Translations under genes and position numbers: made by a program
The notes under the pieces: model-generated
Database searches by the model: none
What the model was told of the DNA's origin: nothing
What the model saw: only the letters and a program-made list of their open reading frames with translations
From: Gammaproteobacteria bacterium
Lineage (GTDB): Bacteria > Pseudomonadota > Gammaproteobacteria > Steroidobacterales > Steroidobacteraceae
DNA: 64,000 bases
NCBI GenBank assembly: GCA_021323735.1
Contig: JAJPKM010000003.1
Location: 1 to 64,000 of the forward strand
Reading direction: 5' to 3'
Shown: one piece after another, positions 58,161-62,288 of the stretch
Numbering within the stretch: the first letter of the stretch is position 1
Layout of the letters: every line of letters begins with the position of its first letter

Positions 58161-61100
58161 ATGGCCCAAGACAACGTCTACGATTCCAGTAAAATCAAAG
58201 TCTTAAAGGGCCTGGATGCCGTCCGCAAACGCCCCGGCATGTACATCGGGGACACCGACGACGGCAGCGGTCTGCACCACATGGTTTTCGAAGTGGTGGA
58301 TAACGCCATCGACGAGGCGTTGGCGGGTCACTGCGACCGGGTAGTCGTCACCATCCACGCCGATGAGTCCGTTACTGTCTATGACAACGGCCGGGGCATC
58401 CCGGTGGATATCCACGCCGAGGAAGGACGCTCCGCCGCCGAGGTCATCATGACCGTGCTGCATGCCGGCGGTAAATTCGACGACACCTCGTACAAAGTAT
58501 CCGGCGGTCTGCATGGCGTCGGCGTGTCGGTGGTGAATGCGCTGTCGGATTTTCTCGAGCTGTTGATCCGCCGCGACGGCAAATTGCACCGCCAGGAATA
58601 TCGCCTCGGCGAGCCGCAGGCGCCGCTGGCGGCCATCGGCGATACCAGCGAACACGGCACCACGATTCGCTTCAAGCCGAGCTCGCAGATCTTCACCCAC
58701 ATTACCTTCAACTACGACACGCTGGCGAAGCGCCTGCGCGAGTTGTCCTTCCTCAATTCCGGCGTGCGCATCGAACTGGTGGATGAGCGCGAGGAAAAAT
58801 CCGAAGTCTTCCAGCACGAAGGCGGATTGAAAGCCTTCGTCACGCATCTCAATCGCAGCAAAACACCGGTGCACGAGTCGGTGTTGTGGTTCCAGGCCCG
58901 CGAGGGCCAGACCCAGGTCGAAGTCGCCATGCAGTGGAATGACTCGTACCAGGAGAGCATGTACTGCTACACCAACAACATTCCGCAAAAGGACGGCGGT
59001 ACGCATCTCGCTGGTTACCGGGCCGCGTTGACTCGAACCCTGAACAATTACATCGAGAAAGAACTCGCCGCGAAGAAGGAGAAAATTCAGACCACCGGCG
59101 ACGATGCCCGCGAGGGGCTCACGGCCATCCTGTCGGTGAAGCTGCCGGATCCCAAATTCTCATCGCAGACCAAGGACAAGCTGGTGTCCTCCGAAGTGAA
59201 GGGCGTGGTCGAATCCGCCGTCGCCGGTCGCTTGGAGGAATTCCTGCTGGAACATCCGCAGGAAGCGCGTTCCATCGTGAATAAAATTCTCGAAGCGGCC
59301 TATGCGCGCGAGGCTGCGCGCAAGGCCCGCGAGATGACGCGGCGCAAAGGCGCGCTCGATATTGCGGGACTGCCCGGCAAATTGGCCGACTGCCAGGAAA
59401 AAGATCCGGCACTCTCGGAAATGTTCTTGGTCGAGGGCGACTCGGCCGGCGGCTCCGCCAAGCAGGGCCGCGACCGGCGTACCCAGGCCATCCTGCCGCT
59501 CAAGGGCAAAATCCTCAACGTCGAAAAAGCCCGCTTCGACAAAATGCTGGGCTCCGCCGAAGTGGGCACGCTCATTACCGCGTTGGGATGCGGCATCGGG
59601 CGCGACGACTTCAACGTCGATAAATTGCGCTATCACCGCATCATCATCATGAGCGTGGACGGCGACGAGCATTGCTTTGTGAGGGATCGAAGCGGCGTGC
59701 GAATGACGACCGTGGGAGCATTTATCGACGGGGCTCTGCAAGGGATGAGCCCCGACGAAAATGGCGTCACGAAGCGAGTACGAGAACCGCTGGGAGACGT
59801 GTTGTGCTTTGGACTGGATGATCACCAGGCCAAATTCCAGCCGATCAAGGGTGTGATTCGACATCCCATCGATGAGGTTCTGTACGAAGCCAAAACCGCC
59901 TACGGACGCTCGATTCGCGTCACGGCGAGTCACAGCGTGTTTGTCCAGGACAACGGCGAGATTCGACTGAAGCAGGGCAGCGAACTAAAAGTTGGCGATC
60001 GCTTGGTGGCACCAAAAAAGATCCGGTTGCCAGAGAATGCGCCGGGCAGGATTGATCTCCTGCGAAGACTGTATGAGATACCCGAGGCGCGTCGCCAGAT
60101 TTGGCTGCGCGGTCCCGCCGTCGAGGCGTGGTACAAATCACAGGTCACACAAGAATATGCCAACCGGCCGGAGATGTCCGCGCCACGAGTCGAGTGGCCT
60201 GAGGCCGTCCGAGAGCAGCTGAAAAAATTGCGCAGAGCCAGCGGAGTAAGCAATGCCGAGCTCTGTCGCAGGGTCGGCATCCGGCAGCCCGTAACGTTTT
60301 ATGCCTGGGAGCGTGGGCTATCCCGTCCCACCTTACCGAATTGCGAGGCCTACCTTGCCGTGATCGGCGCCGATGCGGCGACATTCATGCCGCAAATAAC
60401 TGTCGGGCCCAGCCGGCTCGAGCGGATCTGGGAAACCCAGTACCGTGGCTCGCCGAGTAATCGAGTCAGAAACTATGTACCGCTGGGGGCGCTGGAGGCC
60501 GAGGACATCGGATGGTTTGCGGAGCGAGAAGATCTGCAGTTGAGTCCCGAACACAACGCCGACTTGGCCATTCCGCGCTTCCTGGACATCACACCGGAAT
60601 TGATGAAGCTGCTCGGCTTCTATATGGCTGAAGGCTCATGCTCAGATCGGAATGGCATCAGGCTGGCTATCGGAAAGAGCAATTTGCGTTTTGTCGACGA
60701 AATGGCGTCCGCTCTTACCCGGGTATTCGGTCTGGCGCCGCAATTTTATGCCATCAACCGAGGCTGCGGGGAGCTCAAGTTGGTGAACCGCGTGGCGGTG
60801 TTGGCCTGGCAACACTTGTTCGGCAACGCTGGTGTTGACTCGCTCACCAAGAAGATCCCTGATCTTGTGTTCAACGTTGACTACGCGCTACGGCTCGCGT
60901 TTCTCCGCGGCTATCTTCTCGGCGATGGCTGTGTTACCTGCGGGAAAGTTGTCTTCAGCACATCCTCGCGTGATATCGCGAGTGGAATTTCCTATCTACT
61001 TTCCAGCTTCGGCGTAGTTAGTAGCACCAGCGAAATCGCCGCCGACAGAGTGTCGCGACAATGCGGCGAGCAGATCTTTAAATCGACACATCGCCACTGG

Positions 61101-62288
61101 CAGATCCGTGTGTCGGCCGTAGAGGACTTGGTTCAACTCCGGAGCGTTTGGGGTGATCACTCTGGAGCACCTACAGTGGAAGAAAGAATTCACATCCATG
61201 ACGTCCCGAGGCGCCGCGCCTTCGACGTCATAAACGGCGACCTTATTGCGTTGCCCATCGTTTCGGTAGCTCCGGTGACCGCTTCCAATGGGAACGTCTA
61301 CGATTTCTCCGTGGAGGGCGATGAAAACTTCATCTGCGGTTTCGGCGGCATCGCGGCAAAGAATACCGATGCCGACGTTGACGGAAGTCATATCCGCACG
61401 CTGTTGCTGACGTTCTTCTATCGGCAAATGCCCATCCTCATCGAGCGCGGCCACATCTACATCGCGCAACCGCCACTCTACAAGGTGAAGAAAGGCAAGC
61501 AGGAGAATTACGTCAAGGACGATCTGGAATTGAACGCTTTGCTTCTGAATACCGCGATCGAGGACGCGGCACTGCATGTCAATGCGGAAGCACCGCCTCT
61601 GTCCGGGTTGGGACTCGAATCCTTGATGCGCAAATATGTCGAGGTTGAAGCCATCGCTGCGCGTTGGGCGCGCCGATACGACGATCGATTCCTCGAGCAG
61701 CTGCTGTACGTGCCGAAACTCACCCCGGAGGCTTTCGATCACATCGATACACTGCGCGATTGGTGCCGTGTTCTCGAGGCGCGCCTCAATGGCCTGGACG
61801 ATGTATCCAGGAAATACAGTGTCACCGTTCAGACCCTGCCCGGAGGTGGCCATCGCATCGACTTGAAGCGCTTGGAGCACGGGTTGAGTTCCGCCAAGCA
61901 TATCCCGCGGGAGTTCTTCGATTCCGCGGAATACCTACGCATCGCCGAGCTCGGACAGACCTTGAGTGATTTGATGGGCCAGGGTGCCTACATTCAGCGC
62001 GGCGAAGACCGCCAGGAAGTAGCCAGCTTCAAGGCGGCGAAGAACTGGCTATTCGAACAAGCCAAGAAGGGTCAGAGCATCCAGCGTTACAAGGGACTGG
62101 GCGAGATGAACGCCGATCAGCTGTGGGATACCACCATCAACCCCGAAACGCGGCGCCTCTTGCAAGTGCGAATCGAAGACGCCGTGGCGGCGGACGATAT
62201 TTTTACGACGCTGATGGGCGATGCCGTGGAACCGCGGCGCGAATTCATCGAGAAGAACGCGCTGAACGTGTCTAATCTGGACGTGTAG
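58161..62288 (+). CDS. gyrB: DNA gyrase subunit B precursor containing an intein
   Basis: 1375-residue precursor; removing the 571-residue intein leaves 804 residues, a standard GyrB. The GHKL ATPase has [10 protein letters not shown] and the transducer follows. The Toprim domain begins E-G-D-S-A-G-G-S-A. The N-extein (497 residues) ends R-I-I-I-M and the C-extein resumes T-D-A-D-V-D-G-S-H, so the intein interrupts the gene directly before the D-x-D metal ligands. Gyrase cannot cleave DNA until splicing has occurred. ATG 58161 follows AGGAT; the frame extends to 58113 without support. The C-terminal Toprim/tail part ([16 protein letters not shown]) is intact. Confidence 0.97.
59652..61364 (+). 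mobile_element. GyrB intein with LAGLIDADG homing endonuclease and internal helix-turn-helix
   Basis: 571 residues inserted in frame. Block A is [10 protein letters not shown], with Ser1 in place of the usual Cys1. Block B is V-T-A-S-H-S-V-F-V (TxxH at 59922-59933). The endonuclease motifs are L-L-G-F-Y-M-A-E-G (about 60607-60636) and L-R-G-Y-L-L-G-D-G (about 60900-60930), both with their acidic residue. Block F is [12 protein letters not shown], and block G is G-G-I-A-A-K-N, with Lys instead of penultimate His, then Thr as the +1 residue. Between block B and the first endonuclease motif lies an XRE-like helix-turn-helix (about 60205-60380: [18 protein letters not shown]). All features of a splicing-competent, mobile intein are present except the two noted substitutions. 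Confidence 0.95.

Follow-up and report, generated by a model that had tools for sequence, protein, structure and literature searches.

A Ser1 intein with a penultimate lysine at the gyrase B TDADVDG site of a Steroidobacteraceae genome, and the recurrence of this residue among GyrB inteins

Results

An in-frame intein at the metal-binding motif of gyrase B

We analyzed a stretch of 64,000 nucleotides, hereafter the window, in which an open frame of 1391 codons (58113 to 62288, forward strand, as are all parts of the gene given below) encodes a gyrB interrupted by an in-frame intein. Counted from the ATG at 58161, an N-extein of 497 residues (58161 to 59651) ends in RYHRIIIM and is followed by an intein of 571 codons at exactly 59652 to 61364, which starts SVDGDEHCF and ends GGIAAKN. 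The C-extein of 307 residues plus stop (61365 to 62288) then resumes with TDADVDGSH, the first Thr being Thr+1. The unspliced precursor has 1375 residues and the host protein without the intein has 804, and both extein halves are recognized by the NCBIfam gyrB profile TIGR01059 (988 bits; cut-off 882.4). The intein splits the metal-binding motif M|TDADVDG after its Met, with Thr as the next host residue, and we take this motif to be that of the TOPRIM domain. At third codon positions the intein has a GC content of 66%, as compared to 77% for the extein. A preliminary description of this DNA had placed a class 1 type intein directly before TDADVDG, with Ser1, a terminal Lys-Asn followed by Thr, a retained block B TxxH and terminal Asn, a Glu where block F usually has His, and an 804-residue host protein; the sequence and the profile searches bear out each of these points, including the coordinates.

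The residues expected to take part in splicing were read from the sequence using block positions numbered after PMC4031507. Ser1 (59652 to 59654), a residue also found at the N-junctions of homologues, is the first nucleophile; block B is T91-A-S-H94 (59922 to 59933) with Thr at B:7 and His at B:10; and block F (61296 to 61331) contains Asp551 at F:4 and Glu558 at F:13. Lys570 at G:6 (codon AAG, 61359 to 61361) occupies the place where a penultimate His is usual, and Asn571 at G:7 (61362 to 61364) is the cyclising residue. The splicing blocks are intact except at G:6, the Glu at F:13 being usual for this allele. The features of a class 1 intein are present in the form of Ser1 (Cys or Ser at position 1), the block B TxxH, Asp551 (Asp at F:4 being the commonest residue there but not obligatory), Asn571 with Thr at +1 (where Cys, Ser or Thr is expected), and a Hint fold with family profiles. 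His at F:13, which is common but according to the accessible part of PMC4031507 not obligatory, is replaced by Glu558, and the likewise non-obligatory penultimate His by Lys570. Class 3 inteins were defined by the lack of a nucleophile at position 1 together with Cys at F:4, and the presence of Ser1 and Asp551 rules out a class 2 or class 3 mechanism.

Scores of 51.1 bits for Pfam Intein_splicing (cut-off 35.8) and 57 bits for LAGLIDADG_3 (cut-off 22.5) are so well above their cut-offs that the assignment is far from chance; TIGR01443 scores 18.1 against 15.6, while TIGR01445 (intein_Nterm), at 22.6, falls slightly below its cut-off of 24.5. The two motifs of a LAGLIDADG homing endonuclease are both present with their acids, LLGFYMAEG with Glu327 (60609 to 60635) and a second motif with Asp425 (60900 to 60929). 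Upstream of them, residues 188 to 243 (60213 to 60380) match the helix-turn-helix profile HTH_31 with 27.4 bits against a cut-off of 27, and this stretch may have a role in recognition of the DNA target. An AlphaFold2 model was built from an alignment of 62 members, made up of the window's intein and 61 others chosen from 80 loci that have both a full copy and flanks (the 19 omitted loci include many short ones or near-copies). Its mean pLDDT is 92.3 and its pTM is 0.89, and the top Foldseek match is PI-PkoII (2cw7; E 1.7e-28), followed by the TliVMA and PhoVMA inteins, PI-PfuI and PI-SceI. All 62 members match both Intein_splicing and LAGLIDADG_3, and 47 of the 62 match HTH_31 (E 0.01), a share that may be too high because short copies were omitted. 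Shorter inteins do occur at the same site, as in L010 (505 residues) and in L088 and L153 (503 residues). Read by eye, the L010 intein is without the helix-turn-helix stretch and has both LAGLIDADG motifs.

Distribution of the insertion site and of its splicing residues

Ordinary GyrB mostly has Met before TDADVDG, as do the 15 intein-free genomes of the window's genus in which the motif was matched, and an Asn at this place therefore usually betrays an intein. Scanning genome_contigs with a degenerate DNA pattern for NTDADVDG returned at least 115 stretches, from which we dropped four that are not gyrB inteins (L019, L033, L057 and L111) and eight intein-free genes with Asn before the motif (L023, L025, L053, L054, L070, L076, L086 and L097), leaving at least 103 records. 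Additionally, a protein search of the family Steroidobacteraceae gave matches in 37 of 217 genomes, 30 of which, including the window's own, have an intein at the same site; the remaining seven have weak matches elsewhere. The 103 records listed and the 30 family inteins together provide 133 rows, or 117 distinct C-termini as judged by the last 60 residues; three family inteins have the same protein sequence as the scan records L045, L069 and L103, which are labelled Steroidobacteraceae. Among these matches position 1 is Ser in all 107 rows with a recognized N-junction; the search expression was limited to Ser or Cys at this position, and in 26 rows no junction was readable. The distinct C-termini listed have Glu (113), Ser (2), Gly (1) or His (1) at F:13 and His (97), Lys (16), Ser (2), Glu (1) or Ala (1) at G:6. 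Terminal Asn and Thr+1 were required by the scan pattern and so are not countable for its 103 records; they are present in all 30 family genomes, which were found by the pattern-free protein search. Ser1, Glu at F:13 and Thr+1 are thus ordinary for the GyrB TDADVDG site, and Lys at G:6 alone is uncommon. The preliminary description had several assisting residues replaced in this intein, which holds for the penultimate His and must be given up for Ser1 and Glu558, both of which are allele-wide among the matches listed. It had also allowed that homologues might reveal a common, already described allele or the same combination of Ser1, Lys-Asn and Thr; the site, Ser1 and Thr did prove common (at least 103 records; see also the accessible part of PMC4071816), whereas the penultimate Lys is confined to a minority of the matches listed and arose more than once.

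Beyond this site, a sample of the class gave intein matches in 7 of 369 genomes, namely the window's own and six others (best E 5.6e-17), and no NTDADVDG was found in the stretches fetched from those six. The best of them, L011, is a related intein that is 33% identical in part, and by eye the flanks of its host gene resemble a nucleotide-sugar epimerase or decarboxylase. Searched against viral_contigs, the intein returned a single pattern match and no confirmed relatives, and the N|TDADVDG pattern gave no matches there; a viral origin or a phage carrier is accordingly unsupported in that collection. Two loci, L027 and L124, show signs of two inteins per gyrB, one at TDADVDG and one after EGDSAGG, the latter starting CFTGDT or CFSGDT.

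Lysine at G:6 in separate lineages

A tree of the inteins was built from 105 rows: of 107 full copies 9 were removed as identical, and 7 of 26 partial copies were added. Of the 16 distinct Lys C-termini the tree includes 15 (L040 is too short), and its end columns were excluded. This is a quick, unrooted tree with SH-aLRT support only, and the extein tree used below is also quick. Long-branch warnings on the intein tree name no Lys row and its composition warnings name L063, L091 and L124; the extein tree too carries warnings of both kinds. The window's intein and five others form a clade with 100% SH-aLRT in which all six have Lys, and these six genomes belong to four genera of Steroidobacteraceae (codes g1, g6, g9 and g300). 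The remaining Lys rows come from Cyanobacteria, a bin labelled Desulfonema, two Chloroflexota and one Actinomycetota. On this tree Lys at G:6 requires eight changes, seven of which are forced by starred branches. A constraint that forces the 15 Lys rows into one clade is rejected (p-AU 1.5e-39), as is a clade of the six cyanobacterial-type Lys rows (p 0.014, for a group picked after inspection of the tree). Lys at G:6 is thus found in at least four lineages, these being the window's clade, L039, the group of L102 and L114, and the cyanobacterial type. We limit the claim to this number because an unrooted tree leaves room for reversals; if these are rare, there would be more than four.

All 16 Lys codons (13 AAA and 3 AAG) are two base changes away from the His codons CAY, and the residues one step from His (N, D, Y, Q, L, P and R) are absent from the 20 non-His C-termini among the matches listed. 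Taken as an informal argument, this points to selection of Lys more than to drift. Glu is present at F:13 in each of the 16 distinct Lys C-termini listed; since this Glu is nearly constant, the pairing carries little information. In the tree alignment Cys562 is present in 15/15 Lys rows versus 38/86 His rows, and Cys568 in 4/15 versus 73/86. On independent pairs (seven on starred branches) neither of these nor Cys569 is significant, the differing pairs being too few for significance, and a compensating residue that covaries with Lys was dropped as a candidate because no residue is significant on such pairs. Other combinations also occur at these positions. The actinomycetotal intein L087 has His at F:13 and Glu at G:6, the reverse of the usual Glu and His and the single case of such a swap, and its sister L039 has Glu and Lys. 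Three GyrB inteins of Solirubrobacteraceae that form one clade (L066, L093 and L129) have a penultimate Ser or Ala.

Apparent movement of the intein between genera

The window's GyrB extein is 90% identical to that of its congener G010, as compared to 58% for the inteins at the same site, and the nearest relatives of the window's intein (75-76% identical) are found in other genera. A clade of the window's intein with the three congener inteins is rejected (p-AU 9.9e-06), and the extein groups with its own genus at 98% SH-aLRT. Two intein lineages at the same site in one genus are best explained by horizontal transfer, and the intein therefore appears to have moved between genera. The genome is a draft of 58 contigs with 1.51% contamination, and a binning or assembly artefact could in principle have brought in a gyrB from another organism. 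We consider this highly improbable, as the contig that carries the gene is at least 64 kb long, the gene follows a recF-like gene as gyrB does in congeners, and the extein has the grouping with its own genus given above.

The recF-like gene is separated from gyrB by 1437 bases in the window, by about 140 in the congeners L009 and L010 and by about 600 in the congener L008. The window's gap holds two reverse-strand open reading frames (56996 to 58017) that encode a DUF6036 nucleotidyltransferase-like protein and a 158-residue protein without a Pfam match, and these are possibly an inserted toxin-antitoxin-like pair.

Indications that the intein is probably functional

A profile search of the window's genome (95.94% complete) found one gyrB, the one interrupted by the intein. 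The sole further match to the profile, C40, has 622 bits, short of the 882.4 cut-off, and its motif is ADADSDG, presumably the ParE form. The exact empty-site sequence was not found in this genome, although at 95.94% completeness a second gyrB could be missed. Across the 23 genomes of the genus, 4 have the intein, 15 have an exact empty site (confirmed at gyrB in 3 of the 15) and 4 have neither, the last all being less than 85% complete. Since one gyrB and no empty copy were seen, splicing is very likely active, and the same may be said of homing in the window's lineage.

Of the 12 pairs of sequences that we tried for dN/dS, 11 are saturated in dS for one or more regions, and these include every pair in which the window's sequence takes part. 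The only pair unsaturated in every region, the Lys inteins L133 and L135, gives ratios of 0.049 in the extein and, within the intein, of 0.057 in its splicing part, 0.085 in the linker that contains the helix-turn-helix and 0.058 in the endonuclease part. Related Lys inteins thus appear to be under strong purifying selection, as judged mainly from this one pair, to which the window does not belong. All six members of the window's Lys clade retain the acids of both LAGLIDADG motifs; across the 15 Lys tree rows, Glu327 is replaced by Asp in one and Asp425 by Ser in one. The loss of a usually helpful residue might instead be taken to mean that the intein is splicing-defective and decaying, with the uncut protein working or the gene dead. 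This is very improbable given an open frame, an extein so close to that of a congener, the low dN/dS in the Lys clade, and insertion at the metal-binding motif of the sole gyrB seen in the genome. We are thus confident, from sequence comparisons, that the element is a functional and mobile intein of class 1 that carries a homing endonuclease and belongs to a widespread GyrB M|TDADVDG allele.

Discussion

In the order of events that we propose, Ser1 would first be esterified with the N-extein, this ester would pass to Thr+1, and Asn571 would then cyclise and free the intein, after which the 804-residue gyrase subunit would be active. It is reasonable to suppose, as did the preliminary description, that gyrase is inactive until splicing has occurred. 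The endonuclease, perhaps aided by the helix-turn-helix, would spread the intein into empty gyrB genes. According to the accessible part of PMC4031507, His at F:13 and His at G:6 act in Asn cyclisation with neither being obligatory, a residue other than His stands at G:6 in about 5% of functional inteins, and cyclisation without both assisting histidines is not settled. We lean toward the view that Lys570 takes over the role of the penultimate His in this step, as a positive group that would stabilize the transition state or activate the scissile amide, with Glu558 at the place of the block F His and opposite Lys570, such that the F:13 and G:6 residues may act as an acid-base pair. A more far-reaching proposal is that Glu at F:13 and Lys at G:6 together form a different catalytic solution to Asn cyclisation, one that arose in four or more widely separated GyrB M|TDADVDG lineages, replacing both usual assisting histidines, as good as or better than Glu-His and possibly shifting the pH response of gyrase maturation. 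We offer this tentatively, as a possibility that is less than probable.

That the intein works and Lys at G:6 is merely neutral or relaxed, with branched-ester formation or other groups driving Asn cyclisation, is a reading that we likewise think has a lesser chance of being correct. It would accommodate the Ser and Ala residues also found at G:6 (3 of the 117 C-termini listed), the observation that His at F:13 and G:6 is not needed in all inteins (PMC4031507, accessible part), and the failure to find a covarying residue on independent pairs. It does not readily explain why 16 of the 20 non-His C-termini listed have Lys, two base steps from His, with the one-step residues absent, or why Lys recurs in unrelated clades and is constant in that of the window. 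Lys might also slow splicing or make it conditional and so lead to regulated gyrase maturation, for the G:6 residue alters splicing speed in a phage intein (PMC5050341, accessible part) and gyrase is presumably a plausible control point; with no trigger found in the sequence and a host that appears dependent on one gyrB, we regard this as unlikely. Related inteins that share a site but carry Lys, His, Ser, Ala or Glu at G:6 make the role of the penultimate residue testable by comparison, and the occurrence of Lys in at least four separate lineages is a natural test of intein excision without the usual helper His, here in a gene that seems to be essential and whose intein has apparently crossed from one genus to another.

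Among previously described GyrB inteins, that of Synechocystis presumably occupies another site than TDADVDG. Synechocystis GyrB is included in the gyrB intein list of the accessible part of PMC4071816, which treats one allele that is like the window's in host gene and in having large and mini forms, and whose groups overlap those of the window's allele (halobacteria, Allochromatium, Coleofasciculus and Oscillatoria). That part of the source differs from our account in containing no Steroidobacteraceae, no insertion site for the allele and no treatment of the penultimate residue. Class 1 inteins of mycobacteriophages have Gly, Lys or Ser at G:6 and thus share a penultimate Lys with the window, but in the accessible part of PMC5050341 they are found in phage genes, use Cys as initiating nucleophile in all those investigated, and include no gyrase and no pairing with Glu at F:13. 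Both the gyrB intein allele and Lys at G:6 in mycobacteriophage inteins are therefore already known from these sources, as far as their accessible parts go. Our literature search, with most subscription journals outside its coverage, returned no account of Lys at G:6 or of a recurrent Glu/Lys pairing in GyrB inteins.

Among inteins of known structure, PI-PkoII is the best match to the window's intein by both sequence and fold and also has ENF in block F, but it ends His-Asn and the sequence match omits the helix-turn-helix stretch of the window's intein. Its superposition on the model gives a TM-score of 0.59 with an rmsd of 12.6, such that the domains sit differently or only parts fit. The Mvu and Mja TFIIB mini-inteins (5o9i and 5o9j) are 25-29% identical over the matched splicing part and, unlike the window's intein, are without an endonuclease; 5o9i has ENFIAGFGG close to its end. 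Finally, the Tko CDC21-1 intein resembles that of the window in that a Lys substitutes for a usual catalytic His, but according to the accessible parts of PMC4031507 and PMC5874633 this is Lys58, which stands in for the block B His at the N-terminal step and not at G:6.
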